From Candidatus Merdivicinus faecavium (GTDB lineage Bacteria > Bacillota > Clostridia > Oscillospirales > Ruminococcaceae), in NCBI GenBank assembly GCA_018716285.1, contig DVKD01000040.1, forward strand, positions 1 to 33,868: a stretch of DNA of 33,868 nt, read 5' to 3'. Under the pieces are notes generated by a model. It was given only the letters and a program-made list of their open reading frames with translations, was not told the DNA's origin and did no database searches. A program made the translations under genes and the position numbers. Shown piece after piece: positions 1,055 to 33,868 of this stretch; the stretch's first letter is position 1, and the number at the start of each line of letters is the position of its first letter.

Positions 1055-1083
1055 TTGAAGCAATAAGGCGACCGTGATATAAT
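1055..1083 (+). promoter_or_regulatory. sigma-A promoter of the cas operon
   Basis: TTGAAG (1055-1060), a 17-bp spacer and a perfect TATAAT (1078-1083). The predicted start near 1090 gives cas3 an untranslated leader of about 145 nt. No other promoter of this quality is seen before cas3, so it probably drives the whole operon and the mini-array. Confidence 0.7.
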
Positions 1084-1234
1084 AAAATCGACAAAAATCT
1101 CATCATTCATTGCCATATTCAATGCTGTATGTATCATTTTTTTCTTTCGGCAGTTCACAGCGCATGAAGCGCTTGATAAAAACAAATGGAGCTTTCATTT
1201 CATCACGATGGCTCAGCCGTATAGGAGAACTATC

Positions 1235-3628
1235 ATGACTTACCCTGCGCATATCCGGGCCGCCGATAACGGATCCTTTGAAGTTCAGCCCGTACAGGAA
1301 CACTGCCGCAGTACCGCAGAAATCGCAAAAGGATGTTTGCAGGGAATCCATCTCGGCGAGGCCGGATACCTTGCGGGGCTGCTCCACGATATGGGAAAAT
1401 TTACGGTTTCTTTCAAAACACATCTGGAAAATTCTGCGGCGGGAAAAGCGGTCCGGCCGGGCTCTGTCATTCACACCCACGGGGCGGCCCGTTTTTTTCT
1501 GGAAGAGTTCCACAATGCCGATGCGTTTTCCTCATTTGAGGACATGACCGCCGAACTGCTGGCCTATGCGTCCAGCGCCCACCACGGGTTGTACGACTGT
1601 GTGGACCAGCAGCACCATTCCGGCTTTTTGCATCGCTTACAGTGGGATGAAAAGCTGTATCGGGAAGCCAGCAAAGAATTTCTGGAACAGTGTGCGGATA
1701 AAAAGGAACTGCGCGCACGTTTTGCGCAGGCCCAGCAGGAGCTCCGCCCCGTTTATGAATGGGCAAACCGTCAGGTCAACCAAGACAACACCGAGCTTTA
1801 TTTCCATTTGGGCCTGCTGGCACGATTGCTCCTTTCTTCGGTGATCCAGGGTGACCGCCAGGATACGGCGCAGTTTATGAATCACATCAGCCCGCCTGTT
1901 TTGCCGGAACCCGGGCCGGTTATCTGGGAACGGCTGCTCCAGCGGGTGGAAAAGAAACTGGACGCTTTGCCGGCCCAAACCCCTGTTCAGCGCGCCCGAA
2001 GGGAAATTTCCTGCCGGTGCCGGAAGGCCGGTGAACTGAATGGCGGTATCTGCCAGCTCCATGTCCCAACCGGCGGAGGGAAAACCCTCAGTTCTCTCCG
2101 CTATGCCCTGGCCCATGCCGCCCGGCACCAGAAATCCCGAATCGTTTTTACTTCCCCCCTTTTAACGATCCTGGAGCAAAACGCCGCGGTGCTGCGGGAA
2201 TTTCTCCAGGAGAATGACCTGGTTTTAGAACACCATTCCAATGTGGTGCAGGAAAAGCGCGGGCCGGATAAACTGGACCCGCATGAGCTCATGGCGGAAA
2301 GCTGGGACGCGCCCATCATTGTCACCACCCTTGTTCAGCTTCTCGACGCCCTATTTTCCGGGAAGACCAGCTGCATCCGCCGCTTCCAGGCCCTCTGCAA
2401 CTGCGTATTGGTTATAGATGAGGTGCAGACTGTCCCGCCCCGAATGATGACCCTTTTTAACCTGGCTCTCAACTTTCTTGCCAATGTCTGCGGCGCCACC
2501 ATCATCCTCTGCTCCGCCACCCAGCCTTGCTTTGACCGGGCGGAGCATCCCCTCCCGGGAACGCCGGAATTGGTCCCTTACACGCCTGAACTGTGGGCGC
2601 CTTTTAAGCGGACCCGCCTGATTGACGCCGGGAGCCGGCGTCTGGAGGAGATCCCGGACTTTATCCGGGAAAAGCTGCGGGAAACGGACAGCCTGCTGAC
2701 AGTCTGCAACACCAAACAGCAGGCCCGTTTCCTCTGCCAGCAGATGAAAGATTCCGGCGGCCTGTCCTGTTTCCACCTTTCCGCCGCCATGTGCCCGGGG
2801 CACCGGAGAGATACTCTGGCGCATATAGAACAGGCGCTGAACAACAGCCGCAAGGACGGCAAAAAGGTCCTCTGTATCGCCACCCAGCTCATTGAATCGG
2901 GGGTCGACATCTCCTTCGGCTGCGTCATCCGGCTGGCGGCGGGGATGGACAACGCGGTCCAGGCTGCGGGCCGCCGCAACCGGAACGGGGAATCTCCCGT
3001 CCCTTCCCCTGTTTTTCTGCTGAATTGCAGCGATGAGAACCTGGGCATGCTGCCGGAAATCCAGGCTGCCAAAACGGCTTCCCTGCAGCTGCTCTCGGCG
3101 TTTCATGAACATCCGGAAGAGTTCGGCAGTGATTTGTCCTCCCCCCAGTGCATTTCCCGCTATTACCAGAATTTATACGGGGGGATGCTGCCCGGGGCCC
3201 AGGACGATCCGACTGGCGAGGGAATGACCCTTTTCGACCTTCTGTCGGTCAACGACAAATATGCCGCCGGCCAGCCGGGCTTTGAACGCTTCGGGCTGCA
3301 TCAGGCCTTTGCCCTGGCGGGCCGCCAATTCCAGGTGTTCAGCCAGGAAACCACGGATATCCTGGTCCCCTACGGAGAAGGCGAGGCCCTGATTGCGGAG
3401 CTTTGCGCCTCCCGGACGCGGTATGAGCCGGGGCTGCAAAAGGAGCTTTTGGACCGGGCAAAGCCGTTTGCGATTTCCGTTTACCGGTTCCAGAGGGAGC
3501 AGTTGGAGCGGCAGGGCGGCCTTATGTCCTTGCTTGACGGAACGATCCTGGCCTTGGACCCTGCTTTTTACGACGCGGAGACCGGGCTGACTCCCGAACC
3601 GGGCAGCGACCGCTATTTGGAGGTGTGA
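1235..3628 (+). CDS. cas3: CRISPR-associated helicase-nuclease Cas3 (type I-C)
   Basis: Cas3 is the effector recruited by Cascade to nick, unwind and degrade target DNA. An N-terminal HD nuclease domain shows the HD pair at residues 51-52 (GLLHDMGK) and downstream histidines in THGAARFF and SSAHHGLYD. The superfamily 2 helicase core follows with Walker A PTGGGKT, Walker B VIDEVQ, motif III CSATQP, the ATQLIESGVDISF motif and the arginine motif QAAGRRNRNGE. At 797 residues it is full length for I-C. The ATG at 1235 is chosen over the in-frame ATG at 1208 because AGGAGA at 1223-1228 is correctly spaced only for 1235. The stop is two bases before the cas5c start, indicating one operon. No inactivating change was seen in the motifs. 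Confidence 0.95.
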   Translation: MTYPAHIRAADNGSFEVQPVQEHCRSTAEIAKGCLQGIHLGEAGYLAGLLHDMGKFTVSFKTHLENSAAGKAVRPGSVIHTHGAARFFLEEFHNADAFSSFEDMTAELLAYASSAHHGLYDCVDQQHHSGFLHRLQWDEKLYREASKEFLEQCADKKELRARFAQAQQELRPVYEWANRQVNQDNTELYFHLGLLARLLLSSVIQGDRQDTAQFMNHISPPVLPEPGPVIWERLLQRVEKKLDALPAQTPVQRARREISCRCRKAGELNGGICQLHVPTGGGKTLSSLRYALAHAARHQKSRIVFTSPLLTILEQNAAVLREFLQENDLVLEHHSNVVQEKRGPDKLDPHELMAESWDAPIIVTTLVQLLDALFSGKTSCIRRFQALCNCVLVIDEVQTVPPRMMTLFNLALNFLANVCGATIILCSATQPCFDRAEHPLPGTPELVPYTPELWAPFKRTRLIDAGSRRLEEIPDFIREKLRETDSLLTVCNTKQQARFLCQQMKDSGGLSCFHLSAAMCPGHRRDTLAHIEQALNNSRKDGKKVLCIATQLIESGVDISFGCVIRLAAGMDNAVQAAGRRNRNGESPVPSPVFLLNCSDENLGMLPEIQAAKTASLQLLSAFHEHPEEFGSDLSSPQCISRYYQNLYGGMLPGAQDDPTGEGMTLFDLLSVNDKYAAGQPGFERFGLHQAFALAGRQFQVFSQETTDILVPYGEGEALIAELCASRTRYEPGLQKELLDRAKPFAISVYRFQREQLERQGGLMSLLDGTILALDPAFYDAETGLTPEPGSDRYLEV

Positions 3629-3630
3629 AC

Positions 3631-4365
3631 ATGTCAAAACCAATCCACCCGAACATCGTGGAATTTCAGGTGAGCGGGGATTACGCCCTGTTCAGCGACC
3701 CCATCACCCGGGTAGGCGGCGAAAAATGCAGCTATCAGGTCCCCACCTATGAGGCGCTGAAAGGGATCCTGGCTTCCATTTACTGGAAACCCACCCTGAT
3801 TTGGTACGTTGACGCCGTGCGGGTCATGGAACCAATCCAGACGGAGGCCAAGGGCATCCGCCCCATTCAATACAGCGGGAAAAACGATCTGGCCTATTAT
3901 ACGTACCTAAAACACGTCCGCTACCGGGTCCGGGCTCACTTCGAGTGGAACGACAACAGACCGGAACTGGCCGCCGACCGGAACGAACACAAACATCACA
4001 ACATCGCCTGCCGGATGATCCAAAAAGGCGGGCGGCGGGATATTTTCCTGGGCACCCGGGAGTGCCAGGGGTATGTGGAGCCTTGCGCATTCGACAGCGA
4101 ACCCGGCGCGTACGCTTCCACCCCGCAGCTGAGCTTCGGGCTCATGTACCACGGCCTCACCTACCCCGATGAAGCCTACTCGGCGGAAACCAAAGGGAAA
4201 ATGACCGCCAATTTCTGGTACCCGGTGATGAAAAACGGCGTCATCTCCTTTCTGCGGCCGGAGGAATGCCCCCTGCATAAGCCTTTGCGGGAGATGGAGA
4301 TGAAACCGTTTGGTTCTGACCGGAATAATTTCTCCGGTTTATCCGAATTTGAAGGGGGCGAGTAA
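3631..4365 (+). CDS. cas5c: Cas5c (Cas5d), crRNA-processing endonuclease of type I-C Cascade
   Basis: In type I-C systems Cas5 replaces Cas6: it cuts the repeat RNA and stays on the 5' handle as a Cascade subunit. Tyr51 (SIYWKP) and the pair Lys121-His122 (NEHKHHN) have the same 70-residue separation as the catalytic Tyr46 and Lys116-His117 of the characterised Bacillus halodurans protein, so the active site looks intact. The protein is 244 residues, normal for the family. The ATG at 3631 is preferred over GTG 3625 because the site TTTGGAGG (3616-3623) sits 7 bases upstream. Two bases separate it from cas3, and its stop abuts the cas8c ATG. Confidence 0.94.
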   Translation: MSKPIHPNIVEFQVSGDYALFSDPITRVGGEKCSYQVPTYEALKGILASIYWKPTLIWYVDAVRVMEPIQTEAKGIRPIQYSGKNDLAYYTYLKHVRYRVRAHFEWNDNRPELAADRNEHKHHNIACRMIQKGGRRDIFLGTRECQGYVEPCAFDSEPGAYASTPQLSFGLMYHGLTYPDEAYSAETKGKMTANFWYPVMKNGVISFLRPEECPLHKPLREMEMKPFGSDRNNFSGLSEFEGGE

Positions 4366-6189
4366 ATGGGGCTGCTGCAAAAAGCGGTGGAAACCTACGA
4401 CGCCCACAGTCAGCTCATCGGAAAGGAAATCGAAGGACACCAGATGCTTGTCCCGGTTTCCCACATCCTGACGGGTGCGGATTTGGAGATCACGCTGGAA
4501 CGGGACGGCCGCTTTTCCTCCGCCAGATTGGTGGACAAAAAGGAGCCGAAAATCCCGATTCCCGCCACGGAGGAGTCCGCCGGAAGAACCAGCGGAGACT
4601 GCGCCCACCCCTTGTGCGACAAACTCTGCTACCTGGCCCCCTATAACCAGAAGAAGCACCGCCTCTATGTGGAACAGCTCACGCGCTGGGCGGAATCGGC
4701 CTGCTCCCACCCCATGCTGCTCCCGATTCTGACGTACATCGAGGGCGGGACGATCCTCGCTGATTTATCGGATTGCGGGCTGATTACCCTGAATAACAAG
4801 GGGATTCCCACCCAGGACGGATTGCTGGTGCGCTGGCGGGTTCACGGGATCGTCACGCCGAAGGATGGCTGCTGGCAGCAGCAGTCCCTGTTTGAAGCCT
4901 TTCAAAACTGGTATGCAAGCTGCCAAAGCGGGCGGGAGAAGAATCTTTGCATGGTAACCGGGGAGGATACGGTCCCCGCAAAACAGCATCCCAAGGGGAT
5001 CATTCCCATTAATGGCAGCGCCAAGCTCATCTCCGCCAATGACCAATCCGGCTTTACCTTCCGCGGGCGCTTTACCGAGGAATCCCAGGCCGCCACCGTC
5101 GGCTATCTGGCCTCGCAGAAGGCCCACAGCGCCCTGCGCTGGCTGGCGGCGGAGCAGGGGGCTTCCGCCTCTTTCGGCGGGCGGGTATTCCTGTGCTGGA
5201 ACCCCCAGGGAAGGCGCGTCTGCCATGCCGCCGGCCCTTTCGGGGACCCCAGCAAGGTTATCGCAAAACCCAGCGATTACCGCCAGGAATTGCGCAGCAT
5301 GCTGATGGGGTACCGCAGCGAGCTCCCGGAACAGGACAGCGGCGTCGTCATCGCCGCCTTTGACGCGGCCACCACCGGCCGGCTGTCCCTCACCTATTAT
5401 AACGAGCTCATGGGCAGCGATTATCTGAAACGCCTTCACCATTGGGACAACCATTGCTGCTGGTTTTTTGGGCGGGACCATAAAATCCAGTCGCCGCCTT
5501 TGTGGAAAATCATCAGCTGCGCTTACGGGACGCAGATCGGACAGGGAAGAGACGCCAAATTCAAGACAGACGGAAAGGTTATGGCGCAGCAGATGCAGGC
5601 TCTGATTTCCTGCCGGGTGGACGGCGCTCCCCTCCCCTTCAGCCTGATCAAAGCCCTGGTAAACCGCGCTTCTTCCCCCCAGGCCTATGAGGTATCTGTC
5701 TGGGAGTCGATTCTTTCCACCGCTTGCGCCGTAATTCAAAAATACCGGTACGACCGTTATCAGGAGGAATGTGATATGGATCTGAACCCGGAAAAGGCGG
5801 ACCGCAGCTATCAGTACGGCCGCTTGCTGGCTGTATTGGAGAAAGCGGAGCGCGATACCTATTCCAATGGCGAAACCAGGGAGCCCAATGCAATTCGGAT
5901 GCAGTCTGTATTCAGCCGCCGGCCCCTGTACGCCGCAAAGATCATGGAAGACCAGCTGGAGCGGGCCTATTTTCCCCGCCTGTCCCCCGGTTCCAGGAGC
6001 TATTATAAAAAGCTCATCGGGGAAATCATGGAACAGATTTACGCCTACCCCAAATCCCAGTGGAACGCCCCTTTAGGCGAAACCTATCTCATGGGCTATT
6101 ATCTCCAGCGCAATGAATTGTACAAATCCAAAAAGAATCCCAAAAGTGAGGAGGAACCTTCTGATGAGCGCTTTGCAGAACAAAATTGA
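4366..6189 (+). CDS. cas8c: Cas8c (Csd1), large subunit of type I-C Cascade
   Basis: Cas8c recognises the PAM and holds the DNA target in type I-C Cascade. The 607-residue product matches the Csd1 family in length and layout: an N-terminal half with AKLISANDQSGFTF and YLASQKAHSALRWL segments, a central SYRxEL / AAFDAATTGRLS region, and an alpha-helical C-terminus that includes ALVNRASSPQAYE. The ATG directly follows the cas5c stop, with a G-rich ribosome site inside the end of cas5c. The last 26 bases overlap cas7c. The C-terminal helical part is probably also made separately as Cas11c from the internal start at 5776. No frameshift was seen. Confidence 0.93.
   Translation: MGLLQKAVETYDAHSQLIGKEIEGHQMLVPVSHILTGADLEITLERDGRFSSARLVDKKEPKIPIPATEESAGRTSGDCAHPLCDKLCYLAPYNQKKHRLYVEQLTRWAESACSHPMLLPILTYIEGGTILADLSDCGLITLNNKGIPTQDGLLVRWRVHGIVTPKDGCWQQQSLFEAFQNWYASCQSGREKNLCMVTGEDTVPAKQHPKGIIPINGSAKLISANDQSGFTFRGRFTEESQAATVGYLASQKAHSALRWLAAEQGASASFGGRVFLCWNPQGRRVCHAAGPFGDPSKVIAKPSDYRQELRSMLMGYRSELPEQDSGVVIAAFDAATTGRLSLTYYNELMGSDYLKRLHHWDNHCCWFFGRDHKIQSPPLWKIISCAYGTQIGQGRDAKFKTDGKVMAQQMQALISCRVDGAPLPFSLIKALVNRASSPQAYEVSVWESILSTACAVIQKYRYDRYQEECDMDLNPEKADRSYQYGRLLAVLEKAERDTYSNGETREPNAIRMQSVFSRRPLYAAKIMEDQLERAYFPRLSPGSRSYYKKLIGEIMEQIYAYPKSQWNAPLGETYLMGYYLQRNELYKSKKNPKSEEEPSDERFAEQN
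5776..6189 (+). CDS. cas11c: Cas11c small subunit, internal in-frame product of cas8c
   Basis: Characterised type I-C systems make the Cascade small subunit Cas11 from an internal start near the 3' end of cas8c. Here an ATG at 5776 (Met471 of Cas8c) is preceded by a perfect AGGAGG (5762-5767) with 8-bp spacing, in the middle of a coding region where such a site has no other reason to exist. The product would be 137 residues beginning MDLNPEKADRSYQYGRLL, about 15-16 kDa and mostly helical, as expected for Cas11. It shares frame and stop with cas8c. That the internal site is used is inferred from the ribosome site and from established biology of the subtype. Confidence 0.75.
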   Translation: MDLNPEKADRSYQYGRLLAVLEKAERDTYSNGETREPNAIRMQSVFSRRPLYAAKIMEDQLERAYFPRLSPGSRSYYKKLIGEIMEQIYAYPKSQWNAPLGETYLMGYYLQRNELYKSKKNPKSEEEPSDERFAEQN

Positions 6190-7012
6190 CTTTGTGGCCC
6201 TGGTTTCTGTCACAATGGCCAACGCCAACGGCGACCCGCTGAACGGGAACCGTCCCCGCACCGACTACAACGGGTTCGGCGAAATCTCCGACATGTGCAT
6301 CAAGCGCAAAATCCGCAACCGGATGCAGGATATGGGCCACCGGATTTTCGTGCAGTCGAATGACCGATGCGACGACGGCTTTCAGAGTTTGATCGAGCGG
6401 GCCTCCACCGTCATGAAGAATGTCAGGGACCGGGATGAATACGCACTGGCGGCCTGTGAAACCTGGCTGGACGTCCGCACCTTTGGCCAGCTTTTTGCCT
6501 TTAAGGACGCAAAAGGGGTGTCCTGCGGCGTAAGGGGGCCTGTTTCCATTCATCAGGCTGTCAGCCTTTCCCCGGTGGAGATCGAGTCCATGCAGATCAC
6601 CAGAAGCGTCAATGGGGAAAAGAAAGAAAAAAGCGGCGACCGCGCCTCCGATACGATGGGCATGAAGCATTTCGTCCGCTTTGGCCTGTATGAAATCAAG
6701 GGCTCCATCAACGTCCAGCTGGCGGAAAAAACCGGTTTTTCTTATGAAGACGCGATGGTCATAAAAGAATGCCTGCGCACCCTCTTTGTCAACGACGCTT
6801 CGTCCGCGCGGCCGGACGGTTCGATGGAGGTGGTCAAGCTCTTCTGGTGGGAGCACAGCTACAAGGACGGCCAGTATTCCTCCGCCAAGGTCCACCGCTC
6901 CGTGAAGGCCGCCCTCAAACCGGGTGTCGAGATTCCTTCCCGGATGGAGGACTACATCATTTCAGCGGAGCCTTTGGAGGGACTGGAACCGGAAATTTTG
7001 GAGGGAGATTAG
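6164..7012 (+). CDS. cas7c: Cas7c (Csd2), backbone subunit of type I-C Cascade
   Basis: Cas7 polymerises along the crRNA spacer to form the Cascade backbone. The 282-residue protein has the family signature NGDPLNGNRPRTD near residues 22-34, a GxFGxLF-like segment (DVRTFGQLFAF), GPVSIHQAVSLSPVE, and the C-terminal KLFWWEHSYKDGQYSSAKVHRSV block. The ATG at 6164 has the ribosome site GAGGAGGAA (6148-6156). An upstream ATG in the same frame (6113) lies well inside cas8c and lacks a site. The gene overlaps the cas8c end by 26 bases. In complete I-C operons cas4 would follow immediately; here the repeat relic starts 22 bases after the stop. Confidence 0.94.
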   Translation: MSALQNKIDFVALVSVTMANANGDPLNGNRPRTDYNGFGEISDMCIKRKIRNRMQDMGHRIFVQSNDRCDDGFQSLIERASTVMKNVRDRDEYALAACETWLDVRTFGQLFAFKDAKGVSCGVRGPVSIHQAVSLSPVEIESMQITRSVNGEKKEKSGDRASDTMGMKHFVRFGLYEIKGSINVQLAEKTGFSYEDAMVIKECLRTLFVNDASSARPDGSMEVVKLFWWEHSYKDGQYSSAKVHRSVKAALKPGVEIPSRMEDYIISAEPLEGLEPEILEGD

Positions 7013-7034
7013 GTCTCATATAAATATTTCTGCT

Positions 7035-7119
7035 GTCGCTCCCCACATGGGGCGTGGATTGAAATTCATACCAGATGCGCGGGTCGATGAGCTGACTGTG
7101 TCGTTCCTCAAACGGGGCG
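7035..7119 (+). CRISPR. collapsed type I-C CRISPR array: one repeat, one spacer, degenerate terminal repeat
   Basis: The 31-nt element at 7035-7065 begins GTCGCTCCCC and ends GTGGATTGAAAT, the type I-C repeat form, oriented with the cas genes. After a 34-nt unique segment (7066-7099, normal I-C spacer length), positions 7100-7119 match the first 20 repeat bases at 16 of 20 positions, then similarity stops, as is typical of a last repeat. The intact repeat keeps the last 11 bases that would form the crRNA 5' handle. Its hairpin is short: four C-G pairs around ACAT, with the distal arm apparently two bases shorter than the usual 32-33-nt I-C repeats. No leader and no cas4, cas1 or cas2 are present. 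An automated array finder would probably miss it. Confidence 0.8.
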
Positions 7120-7129
7120 CCTGCCGCCG

Positions 7130-7335
7130 CTCTTCACAATATCCGAGCATGAGGAAACCGGCGATGGCGTCCTCCGCAAGATTGCAAAAGGGTAGCCGGT
7201 GTCCCGGCAGGCATAAGCCTGCGCCAGCGCGTGTGCGGTGGAAGAGACAAAGCCGCTTTGCGATGGGAAAACCTTGCGCTGCAAAACCTCTTCCAGATTG
7301 TCTTTTGCAATTTCTTTCAGTTTTACCGGCATCAT
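7130..7335 (-). pseudogene. GNAT-family N-acetyltransferase remnant, frameshifted and truncated
   Basis: Reading leftwards from the ATG at 7335, with an AAAGGA site about 9 bases upstream, the frame gives MMPVKLKEIAKDNLEEVLQ and then AHALAQAYACRDTGYPFAI, like the start of BltD/spermidine-acetyltransferase-type GNAT proteins. After YPFAI (about 7180) the sense shifts to another frame, giving LAEDAIAGFLMLGYCEE, the expected next beta strands. This is a one-base indel. Similarity ends near 7130, right at the degenerate repeat, so the acetyl-CoA-binding part is gone. It lies downstream of the MFS gene on the same strand. The boundary at 7130 is approximate. Confidence 0.65.
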
Positions 7336-7375
7336 CGCGCGCCATCCTTTGCCGTTTGGGGCAAATCCGCATTTC

Positions 7376-8671
7376 CTATCCGGCGTTTTCCGGCGTTTCA
7401 GCGCTCGCTTCCTCTACCTGCGGCTCCTGGATGCGGCCGATGATCAGCATGGCCGTGACAAACAGCAAAAGCGCGAGGACGAAGGGCAGGCGGCGGTCCA
7501 GACTGGAGAGCAAGCCGGCAAAATACCCGAAGGGGGAGGAGAGGGCGATTGTAGAGGCCATGATCAGGGCGTTCAGGCGGGCCCGCTCCTGGGGAGCGAT
7601 GTTCAGCTGGAGAAGCGCGTCTTTCCGCGGATTCACCAGCGCGGCAGCCAGGGCGGCAAAAAATACATAGAGCAGCACAAAACCCAGGCTGTTTACAGGC
7701 GCGAAGATCAGCACCAGGGCAGCAGCGCTGTACAGCCCCAACCCTATCCACAGCGGGACGCGGAATCTCGTGGCGTTCATGCGGTGCTGAACCCCCACCA
7801 TAAAGACCAGCATGACGGCGGCGTTCAAAATGGGAAAGAGGGCCAGGAAATTTTCCGAAAGCCCCAGCCGCTGCGTCACATACAGCCCGAAAAAGTTCGT
7901 GCTCACCATATTGGTGACATACAGGATTACCGAGACGGCCACCGCCTTGAGGACGCTCCTGTCCTTCAGCAGGCTGGGGATCAGCTGGCGGTATTCCCCC
8001 AGCATATGGGGAATCGATACCCCCTTTGTCTCTGCCCGTCGGATTTTGCCCTGCTTTGTTTCCCGGCAGAACTTGAAGGTGATGAGCGTTTTCGCAAGCA
8101 TCGTCAGCGCAAAGAGGAAATACAGCACCCGCACCACCGGCACAATTGAATACGAGCTGACAAATAACCCGGAGAGCGGCGCAAAAAATATCGCCACCAG
8201 CCCGCCGATGCTCACCCAGGTGTAGATCCCGACCAGATCCTTTGGGTGGGCATCCTCAATGAGCAGACAGTACCATGCCGTCTGGTTGATCTGCTCAAAG
8301 CAGTTGAGCAGCGCGGCGGCCAAAAACAGCCAGAAATTGCTGGAAACAGCCCACACCAGGCAAGCCATCGACCAGCCGAAGAAATCCCCCATCATGGTGG
8401 TGAATTTTCGCCCCAGCTTATCCGATAGAATGCCCCCAAAAAAGGAAAACAGCACCTGGAAGACCATTGCGATGGAGAGGATCAGGCCGATCTGCACGTC
8501 TGTGATGCCCTGTGTGTACATATAAAGGGTGGCAAACGGCGAGATCAGGTTGTAGGGGATCCCCCACAGCGGTTCGATGAGCACCAGGGTGCGCGGATTT
8601 CCCCCGTTGTTCGCCAGCACCTGAAGGAGGGGGTGTGCTTTCAGATTGCGTACTTTTTCTTTCAGACTCAT
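7376..8671 (-). CDS. MFS transporter, 12 transmembrane segments
   Basis: A 431-residue membrane protein with the alternating hydrophobic pattern of a 12-helix major facilitator. The loop between helices 2 and 3 has the MFS signature GGILSDKLGRKFTT (about residues 79-92), and a longer charged central loop (RETKQGKIRRAETKG) separates the two halves. The substrate cannot be read from sequence. Close relatives in Clostridia are usually annotated only as MFS transporters. The start at 8671 (MSLKEKVRNLKAH) has only a weak GGGATA-like site. It was probably followed in one transcript by the GNAT gene that is now a pseudogene. Confidence 0.85.
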   Translation of the reverse strand: MSLKEKVRNLKAHPLLQVLANNGGNPRTLVLIEPLWGIPYNLISPFATLYMYTQGITDVQIGLILSIAMVFQVLFSFFGGILSDKLGRKFTTMMGDFFGWSMACLVWAVSSNFWLFLAAALLNCFEQINQTAWYCLLIEDAHPKDLVGIYTWVSIGGLVAIFFAPLSGLFVSSYSIVPVVRVLYFLFALTMLAKTLITFKFCRETKQGKIRRAETKGVSIPHMLGEYRQLIPSLLKDRSVLKAVAVSVILYVTNMVSTNFFGLYVTQRLGLSENFLALFPILNAAVMLVFMVGVQHRMNATRFRVPLWIGLGLYSAAALVLIFAPVNSLGFVLLYVFFAALAAALVNPRKDALLQLNIAPQERARLNALIMASTIALSSPFGYFAGLLSSLDRRLPFVLALLLFVTAMLIIGRIQEPQVEEASAETPENAG

Positions 8672-14892: not shown

Positions 14893-16977
14893 TCAGACCC
14901 GGTACAGCAGGTCGGCGTAAGTCGGGATGGGCCACTCGGAAGCGGCGACAAACTTCTCCATCCGGTCGGCGACCTCCCGCAGCTTTTCCATCAGGCGGCG
15001 GATACAGTCGCGGTGATAGCGGGCATTTTCGAGCAGGTCGGCGCTCTCCGCGCAGCGCTCGAGGGCGCGCTCCAGCTCGCCGGTCAGCCTGTCTGCCTCG
15101 GAAATGTCGTCCGAAAGCAGCTGGGCGAGGTCGCGGACGCTCCGGTTCTCGATGCCGGCTGCCTTGAGGGAGGAAAAGCTCTCCGCGAGCCCTCCCGTGA
15201 AGCGGATCGCGGCAGGCAGGATCTGGCGGCGGGACATCTCGCACATGGTCGCGGCCTCGATATTGAGGATCTTGCAGTAATTTTCCAGCATGATCTCATA
15301 GCGGGAATGGCACTCGGCGCTGGACATGACGTGATGCCGCTCCATCACCGCGATATTCTTCGGGGCGATCATGGCGGTGATGGCGTCGACGGTGTTATGA
15401 AGGTTCGGGAGCCCGCGGCGGGCGGCTTCCTCCACCCACTCGTCGGTGTAGTTGTTGCCGTTGAAGATGATGCGGCCGTGGTCGCGGACCGTTTCCTGCA
15501 CGATCTTCTGGATCTCGGCGTCAAAATCCGTGCAGCGTTCGAGCCGGTCGGCGATCTTGCAGAGGGCATCGGCGACGATGGTGTTGAGGACATAGCTCGA
15601 AATGGCGACCGACGCCGAGGATCCGACCATCCGGAACTCGAACTTGTTGCCGGTGAAGGCGAAGGGGGAGGTCCGGTTGCGGTCGGAGCCGTCCCGCGGG
15701 AGCTTGGGCAGGGTCGCGACCCCGGTCTCCAGGATGCCGGACGGGGTCTGGTCGACGACGTCGCCGTGGGCGATGTGCTCCAAAACGTCGGTGAGCTGCT
15801 CGCCCAGATAGATGGAGATGATGCCGGGAGGCGCCTCATGCCCGCCCAGACGGAAGTCGTTGCCGGCGTTTGCCGCGCTCATCCGCAAAAGGTCGGCGTA
15901 GTCGTCGACCGCGCTGATGACAGCCGAGAGGAAGACGAGGAACTGCATGTTCTCATACGGCGTCTTGCCCGGATCGAGGAGGTTCTGGCCGTCGTTTGTT
16001 GAGAGGGACCAGTTGTTGTGCTTGCCCGAGCCGTTGACCCCCTGGAAGGGCTTCTCGTGGAGCAGGCAGGCCAGGCCGTTTTTCTTGGCGACCTCGCGGA
16101 TGACCTCCATCGTGAGCTGGTTGTGGTCGCAGGCGACGTTGACCGCCTCAAAGACGGGGGCCAGCTCATGCTGGGCGGGGGCAGCCTCGTTGTGCTCGGT
16201 CTTGCAGGGGACGCCGAGCTCCCAGAGCGCCTCGTCGAGGTCCCGCATGAACTGCCGCACCCGCAGCCGGATGCGGCCGCAGTAATGGTCCTCCATCTCC
16301 TGCCCTTTTGCGGGACGCGCGCCGAAGAGGGTGCGCCCGCAGAGCTTTAAGTCGAGCCGCTGCTCGTACTTCTCCCTGTCGATGAGGAAATACTCCTGCT
16401 CCGCCCCGACGGTCGGGCTGACGCGGGTGGCCTGGGTGTTGCCGAAGGCGCGCAGCACCCGCAGCGCCTGTTTGTTCACCGCCTCGTTGGAGCGCAGAAG
16501 CGGGGTTTTGGTGTCCAGCGCCTCGCCGGTGTAGGCGTAAAAAGCGGTGGGGATGTAGAGGGTGCCCTCCCGCACAAAGGCCGGAGAGGTGCAGTCCCAG
16601 GAGGTGTAGCCGCGGGCTTCAAAGGTGTTGCGCAGGCCGCCGCTCGGGAAGGAGGAGGCGTCCGGCTCCCCGACGATCAGCTCCTTGCCGGAGAATTCGA
16701 GGATGCCCAGGCCCTCCTTGGTCGGGGCGATGAAGCTGTCGTGCTTGCCTGCGGTGAAGGTGGTCATCGGCTGGAACCAGTGGGTGAAATGGGTGGCGCC
16801 CTGTTCCACCGCCCAGTCCTTCATCGCCGACGCGACGACCTCGGCGACCGCCGGCTCGAGGGGATGCCCCTCGTCGATGGAACGGCGGAGGGAGAGGTAG
16901 GTCCCCTTCGAGAGCTTGTCGCGCATGACCCGGTCGTTGAAGACCCGGCTGCCGAAATGGGAAAAATCGTAGCTCAT
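14893..16977 (-). CDS. glnN: glutamine synthetase type III
   Basis: Makes glutamine from glutamate, ammonia and ATP. At 694 residues it is the size of the GSIII class found in Bacteroides, Clostridia and cyanobacteria, much longer than GSI. Typical blocks are FTHWFQPMT, the N-terminal [20 protein letters not shown] split across the beta-grasp region, [11 protein letters not shown] (metal-binding glutamates), [17 protein letters not shown], the [13 protein letters not shown] loop and [10 protein letters not shown]. The ATG at 16977 has AGGAGG six bases upstream; the longer frame start lies within this site. Its start is 14 bases after the asnA stop, so the two ammonia-using amidotransfer genes form an operon. 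Confidence 0.95.
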
Positions 16978-33796: not shown

Positions 33797-33868
33797 GCTG
33801 AAGTGGCTCAGTCGGTAGAGCAGCTGATTCGTAATCAGCAGGTCGTCGGTTCAAGTCCGATCTTCAGC
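33797..33868 (+). tRNA. tRNA-Thr, anticodon CGT
   Basis: Full cloverleaf of 72 nt: acceptor arms GCTGAAG and CTTCAGC pair perfectly, D-stem GCTC/GAGC, anticodon stem GCTGA/TCAGC with loop TTCGTAA (anticodon CGT reading ACG), and T-arm GTCGG-TTCAAGT-CCGAT with one G-T pair. The encoded gene ends at the last base of the window, so whether CCA is encoded cannot be seen. Confidence 0.93.

Follow-up and report, generated by a model that had tools for sequence, protein, structure and literature searches.

The window, i.e. the whole 33,868-nt stretch that was analysed, is one entire contig (G000:C25) of the 2.66-Mb draft assembly of Candidatus Merdivicinus faecavium, which comprises 61 contigs and is 95% complete. 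It carries the four effector genes of a type I-C CRISPR-Cas system, each an open frame scoring above its NCBIfam cut-off, and right behind them a mini-array composed of one repeat (R1), one spacer (S1) and a degenerate terminal repeat (R2):

1055..1083, + strand: promoter-like site 5′ of cas3 (TTGAAG-17-TATAAT)
1208..3628, + strand: cas3, HD nuclease-helicase (TIGR01587, 106 bits, narrowly above the cut-off of 102; TIGR01596, 56 bits, cut-off 43; PADLOC Cas3c, 4e-175)
3625..4365, + strand: cas5c, pre-crRNA processing endonuclease of type I-C (TIGR01876, 243 bits, above cut-off)
4366..6189, + strand: cas8c, I-C signature gene (TIGR01863, 270 bits, cut-off 219)
6164..7012, + strand: cas7c (TIGR02589, 313 bits, above cut-off)
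7026..7034, + strand: probable leader-end residue, ATTTCTGCT
7035..7065, + strand: R1, I-C repeat of 31 nt, missing two bases of the stem, with an intact 3′ handle
7066..7099, + strand: S1, spacer of 34 nt
7100..7119, + strand: R2, terminal repeat that retains the 5′ half with its hairpin and has lost the 3′ half

The type I-C features present include the Cas8c signature protein as well as Cas5c and Cas7c of the I-C kind, along with Cas3, in which alignment with its counterpart from locus L036 brought out what we take to be the HD and helicase motifs. The start of cas7c presumably lies at 6164, overlapping the end of cas8c, and its open frame extends back to 6113. At columns conserved in at least 95% of sequences, the window proteins show no departures in Cas5 (0 of 88 columns; panel of 82 sequences) or Cas8 (0 of 65; 78 sequences), four in Cas3 (4 of 113; 80 sequences) and three in Cas7 (3 of 114; 90 sequences), the latter being changes of near-invariant residues. 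The window is counted in each panel; broken or partial sequences were removed (4, 11, 4 and none for Cas5, Cas8, Cas3 and Cas7, respectively), and all panels are without five loci (three from genomes duplicated under another number, and both copies of the G004 locus described below) and without further loci that gave no match at E 1e-20. Departures equal to or above those of the window occur in 13 of 80 Cas3 and 18 of 90 Cas7 sequences, the window included. With so few departures at conserved columns, the effector genes look sound, if not pristine. The first-pass annotation had proposed a full interference operon with its own promoter: the operon is indeed full, whereas the promoter-like site is a weak consensus match, as two such sites were found against 0.9 expected from shuffling. 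Upstream of the operon, a partial gene resembling DUF4928/type II restriction enzymes (1-609) is cut by the contig start; at the opposite end of the window, a tRNA gene (33797-33868) is cut by the contig end.

R1 begins at 7035, 22 bp after the cas7c stop at 7012, exactly as first described, and its assignment to the I-C repeats of relatives holds up, since 30 of its 31 positions agree, by eye, with the repeat found in the related loci L054 and L055. It has the stem-loop and the 3′ end ATTGAAAT of I-C repeats, apart from an AG missing from the 3′ stem arm, and is unique in the genome within 3 mismatches. The 34-nt spacer is followed, in agreement with the initial description, by a repeat degenerate at its 3′ end: R2 matches R1 at 16 of its first 20 bases and diverges thereafter (17/31 overall). 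The probability of at least 16/20 by chance is 3.9e-7 per position (4e-6 over 11 offsets), and the rest of the window contains no 20-mer, on either strand, that reaches this score. The possibility that R2 is chance or coding sequence, prompted by the occurrence of TTCCTCAAACG after the G004 terminal repeat as well, was rejected because of this match at the right spacing and a 17/20 match (by eye) between R2 and the G004 terminal repeat. Three of the four R2 mismatches to R1 lie in the loop, and the fourth, C to U, still pairs with G (by eye). Directly 3′ of R2, a broken acetyltransferase-like reading frame can be discerned by eye on the minus strand (about 7113-7340); a Pfam search of one frame behind R2 gave no match.

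The R1 hairpin has a folding energy of -11.5 kcal/mol (z -1.69), which 12 of 200 shuffled sequences equal or surpass. A 6-bp R2 hairpin appears in the fold of the predicted crRNA (7055-7119; z 0.20), and is absent from the folds of the R2 stretch alone (7100-7130; z 0.13) and of 7013-7130 (z 0.78); as it forms in one of three folds, none of them better than shuffles, crRNA processing is regarded here as putative. No terminator-like site was found in 6900-7450.

Missing adaptation genes and the extent of the proposed deletion

The cas4-cas1-cas2 genes, which are usual in type I-C but do not define the subtype, are absent between cas7c and the array. The first-pass picture of a system without genes for learning extends to the rest of the 95%-complete assembly, in which Cas1 and Cas2 families found no match, the same searches being positive in 9 and 7 of 14 control genomes, respectively; a Cas4 query from L036, run without a positive control, found none either. 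Complete I-C loci of Ca. Galloscillospira excrementipullorum (L036/L051) share with the window the arrangement cas3-cas5c-cas8c-cas7c and the repeat family, with Cas7 82% identical, whereas the window is without cas4-cas1-cas2, retains about 9 bases of leader as compared to about 170, and has one spacer as compared to 22 (23 repeats). L037, another I-C locus of the same order that looks complete, has at least 131 repeat units in the stretch fetched, whose end cuts the array.

Among 63 related arrays with a placeable first repeat, that repeat is preceded by TGCT in 38 and by GCT in 41. The sequence preceding R1, ATTTCTGCT, resembles such a leader end, which makes R1 more likely a leader-end repeat than an internal one, and with 22 bp between the cas7c stop and R1 only the end of the leader seems to be left. 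A blastn match to L038 reaches 9 bases upstream of the first array repeat of that locus. R2 looks like a trailer-end repeat that lost its 3′ half, a comparable loss being visible by eye in L120, and the array seems to have collapsed between the two. Of the deletion proposed in the first-pass annotation, the loss of cas4-cas1-cas2 and nearly all of the leader is borne out, whereas survival of the trailer-end spacer alone is less likely, given the leader-end appearance of R1. Relatives provide precedents for deletions reaching the array from cas7 or from the 5′ end of cas4. The deletion ends, which alignment with relatives had been expected to reveal, were not placeable by synteny: the MFS gene beside the locus is present in five of six other genomes of the genus searched, and blastn of five fetched regions from its surroundings against the window gave no match left of 7396 and no empty site.

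The panel of related loci comprises the best 80 of 100 Cas7 relatives, of which 75 are informative; being picked by a readable cas7, it favours kept effectors. A Cas1 match of more than 250 residues is present in 63 of the 75 and absent, with cas7 kept, in 12. In nine of these 12, an ordered array begins within about 750 bp of cas7; L119, the G004 locus, has a decayed array and, being the sister locus, is not independent evidence, and L092 and L129 have no array by the pattern used. An open-frame and length filter found open, near full-length frames for all four effectors in eight cas1-less loci (L058, L064, L082, L104, L106, L115, L120 and L128), which resemble the window in these open effectors and in having the array near cas7. 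Most of these eight differ from it in having more spacers (L082 has only two repeat-like units), and several keep pieces of cas4, cas1 or cas2. In L120, from a Ruminococcus assembly, an array with 8 repeats counted starts 19 bp after the cas7 stop, so that the window is not alone in having a cas7 that leads directly into the array. The cas7 dN/dS is 0.053 between cas1-less L106 and L107, which has cas1, and 0.107 between cas1-less L115 and L116. Adaptation genes were lost in differing ways in L058, L064, L093, L104, L106, L115, L120 and L128; in L064, the 5′ end of cas4 runs straight into the first repeat.

The sister locus and the probable source of the spacer

A diverged sister locus is found in Ca. 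Merdivicinus intestinigallinarum (G004, DVOW01000015.1). Its contig holds the 3′ end of cas8 and a cas7 frameshifted by a 20-base deletion (87% identical DNA in a 1007-column alignment). After a further 70 bp there is a repeat with a copy of S1 behind it, then the 3′ end of the next repeat, another spacer and finally a terminal repeat; cas3, cas5, cas4, cas1 and cas2 were not found on this contig. The S1 copy carries four substitutions plus one inserted base over 22 bases, and the 70 bp contain an RBS-like stretch and an ATG resembling, by eye, the cas4 start of L051. Since G004 is likewise without cas4-cas1-cas2 and has a decayed copy of S1, the loss of these genes most simply predates the split of the two loci, and is thus probably old. 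Outside the cas region, blastn and tblastx found no match between the two contigs at the limits used, indicating that the locus has moved or was transferred. Independent acquisition of S1 in G004 was judged unlikely, because a one-base insertion is unexpected in a coding protospacer and the copy is located behind cas7 just as S1 is. Spacers do arise separately from one site, as a spacer of G077 and one on contig C57 (see below) read the same VP1 codons (by eye). The second G004 spacer gave nothing convincing in phages, with a best E of 0.4 among the matches listed.

Between the window and G004, dN/dS of cas7 is 0.175 (267 codons), above the 0.03-0.12 of nine other cas7 pairs with dS of 0.1-0.6, which overlap and in some cases include cas1-less loci; this points to constraint on cas7 since the split, combined with partly relaxed selection on at least one branch. 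For a 62-codon stretch of cas8, the ratio is 0.43. At the 36 amino acid differences in Cas7, the commoner residue is kept by the window in 16, by G004 in 12 and by neither in 8, so that the window Cas7 is only slightly better kept.

S1 resembles three homologous genes at the same codons (29/34, 27/34 and 25/34): those in its two best phage-record matches, which are unverified faecal scaffolds (E 0.01 each; 29/34 and 25/34), and one on a 247-kb Subdoligranulum plasmid (27/34). All three sites correspond to codons DPRIWYE, on the other strand, of one protein family. The IMG/VR contig L139 carries a gene of this family with 46% identity, and the first 20 bases of S1 are identical in the present-day homologues L132 and L139. 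The gene order SSB - S1-source-family protein - DUF932 is shared by plasmid-like elements of gut bacteria (L134, 19480-21849; L131, 5905-8345, with a weak SSB): it is seen in the first phage record, where SSB scores 22.8 bits, under the Pfam cut-off of 26, and in a plasmid of Vescimonas that carries VirD4-like and PrgI genes and whose copy of the gene is without a close match to S1. MOB-suite classified both the Subdoligranulum and the Vescimonas plasmid as non-mobilizable. S1 appears to be derived from a plasmid-type gene; to call such plasmids “conjugative-type” would be a reading of the VirD4-like gene. Pfam and PHROGs offered no name for the target gene, with no match over the cut-off or below E 0.02, and a related-locus search in IMG/VR found no relative (L139 was found by other means); the family has no match in the genome of the window or in 98 of 99 others searched, the one match being in G095.

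The search for an S1 target with a TTC PAM, suggested at the outset for phage, plasmid and host genomes, brought no exact match. Seven phage records matched, of which two are the homologues above and five were judged chance; 50 plasmid records matched, mostly Rhizobium at E 1-5 among the 20 listed, and were likewise judged chance. Coding-pattern searches of IMG/VR in both readings gave nothing in two cases and 18 stretches in a third, of which only L139 is homologous, and a DNA-pattern search gave no match. A 20-mer search returned two contigs, the confirmed homologue L139 and L138; the latter encodes a different, relaxase-like protein (by eye) and was rejected as a chance match. Among 394 genomes of the order, S1 was found only in the window itself. 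Self-targeting is unsupported, as the S1 gene family has no match in this genome and S1 itself occurs there once within 3 mismatches, in the array. The bases before the S1-homologous sites, all of them in diverged homologues, are TTT, GTT and GTT, where TTC is expected, the type I-C PAM being GAA/TTC according to a passage of PMC6519985. Because the last PAM base falls on a third codon position, a synonymous difference there (plus a T at the first base) would be enough for the real source to have TTC.

The single spacer claimed initially is true of the window locus and not of the genome, where a second, orphan array brings the number of known spacers to three:

G000:C57, about 15090-15255 (L048, about 1091-1256): orphan mini-array with three imperfect repeats, which belong to the R1 repeat family and enclose two spacers

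Its repeats are degenerate and different from R1, and no cas gene matched at E 0.1 in the 20 kb examined around it. A second array elsewhere was to have reduced the window locus to a satellite; such an array is there, but since it is decayed and has no cas genes in those 20 kb, no complete system was seen here of which the window locus would be a satellite. One C57 spacer matches gokushovirus VP1, at 94.6% over 37 bases in the best records (E 5e-8) and up to E 1 in 516 phage records; the other matches a scaffold of a faecal phage (94.1% over 34, E 2e-6). Of five records read, four have TTT before the site and one has TTC. Repeat-like pattern matches on contigs C12, C22 and C56 depart from the 3′ end of the repeat and were judged chance. 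Spacers of two genera, at L036 12003-12036 and G000:C57 from 15121, correspond, by eye, to one stretch of VP1 codons (GYQEAWAEYR) and differ synonymously, the site apparently having been captured separately in each.

Possible function and alternative readings

From sequence comparisons we infer the history of the locus, its transcription, and the cleavage and targeting described here. It is probably an interference-only type I-C relic, which lost its adaptation genes and most of its array, and in which a single crRNA from the cas transcript may still guide interference. A deletion from the end of cas7c to the end of the leader would have removed cas4-cas1-cas2 and almost the entire leader, and the array would have shrunk to one spacer between the leader-end repeat and the degenerate terminal repeat. 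Residing now in the 3′ tail of the predicted cas transcript, the array may do without a promoter in the leader; cuts by Cas5c at the hairpins of R1 and R2 would release one crRNA with S1, and the complex of this crRNA with Cas5, Cas8 and Cas7 would recruit Cas3 to elements with the plasmid-type source gene. Such a mechanism appears plausible: the locus may still make one crRNA, and targeting is possible, while interference taking place at present is somewhat doubtful.

In favour of the interference-only reading we count the effectors scoring above cut-offs with few departures, and the lack of any Cas1, Cas2 or Cas4 match in the assembly; the join of cas7 and array in G004, without cas4-cas1-cas2 and with its copy of S1, and the cas7 dN/dS of 0.175; the coincidence of the two best phage-record matches and the plasmid on one codon stretch of one gene family; and the R2 mismatches lying in the loop or keeping a pair, the lack of a terminator-like site and the 8 of 12 cas1-less loci with open effectors. 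Against it we count the lack of an exact target and the TTT/GTT at homologous sites where TTC is expected; the stem loss in R1, the imperfect repeats in both arrays, the raised cas7 dN/dS and the three changed Cas7 residues; the folds of the R2 stretch, the crRNA and 7013-7130, which are no better than shuffles; and the draft state of the genome.

The same history may instead have led to a dead relic, a possibility falling just short of an even chance, in which no useful crRNA is made, the effectors are open merely for lack of time, and G004, whose contig is without cas3, cas5 and most of cas8 and whose cas7 is frameshifted, represents the next stage. This would agree with the imperfect repeats of both arrays, with cas7 dN/dS being raised relative to similar pairs, and with the lack of an exact S1 target, but less so with four open effectors departing at few conserved columns, and with the first 20 bases of S1 being identical to L132 and L139 while the G004 copy has decayed. 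In a genome of 61 contigs, where the window is one whole contig, the join of cas7 and array or the missing cas4-cas1-cas2 might also be put down to misassembly; this is highly improbable, as a second assembly, that of G004, has the same kind of join, diverged and with its own 70 intervening bases.

Compatible with the interference-only reading, the operon in the window, being the only I-C effector set seen, could serve both mini-arrays, with their three spacers, in trans. The C57 array belongs to the same repeat family, both of its spacers have phage matches (gokushovirus VP1 and the faecal scaffold), no cas genes were found in the 20 kb examined there, and the genome has one Cas7 match; yet with its repeats degenerate and unlike R1, and its transcription hypothetical, such a use of the C57 spacers appears rather unlikely. 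More speculative, and of still lower likelihood, is the idea that this effector set has turned into a fixed, inherited exclusion device with a single guide on one transcript, maintained by selection against one conjugative-type plasmid family, the guide being preserved alongside intact effectors and decaying alongside broken ones. In that case, similar deletions may have made adaptive immunity hard-wired in several lineages of gut Clostridia. The window locus has the appearance of a CRISPR system frozen after losing the ability to learn, with its sister one step further decayed, and the pair constitutes a natural test of the worth of keeping one old spacer; the 12 of 75 related loci suggest that loss of I-C adaptation with effectors kept is a repeated route, which can be counted across genomes.

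Literature searches, which left subscription literature mostly uncovered and are no proof of novelty, found no publication that describes this locus or an interference-only I-C locus with a single spacer. With its effectors and no Cas1-Cas2, it would join the already known interference-only kind, i.e. CRISPR-Cas loci without an adaptation module, as portrayed in parts of PMC8092290 and PMC8616872, where acquisition in trans from another locus is discussed; here, in contrast, neither Cas1 nor Cas2 was found in the assembly. The single-spacer mini-CRISPR arrays of prokaryotic viruses mentioned in PMC8616872 reside, as far as that portion of the text goes, in viral genomes, whereas the one in the window lies directly behind a bacterial cas operon.
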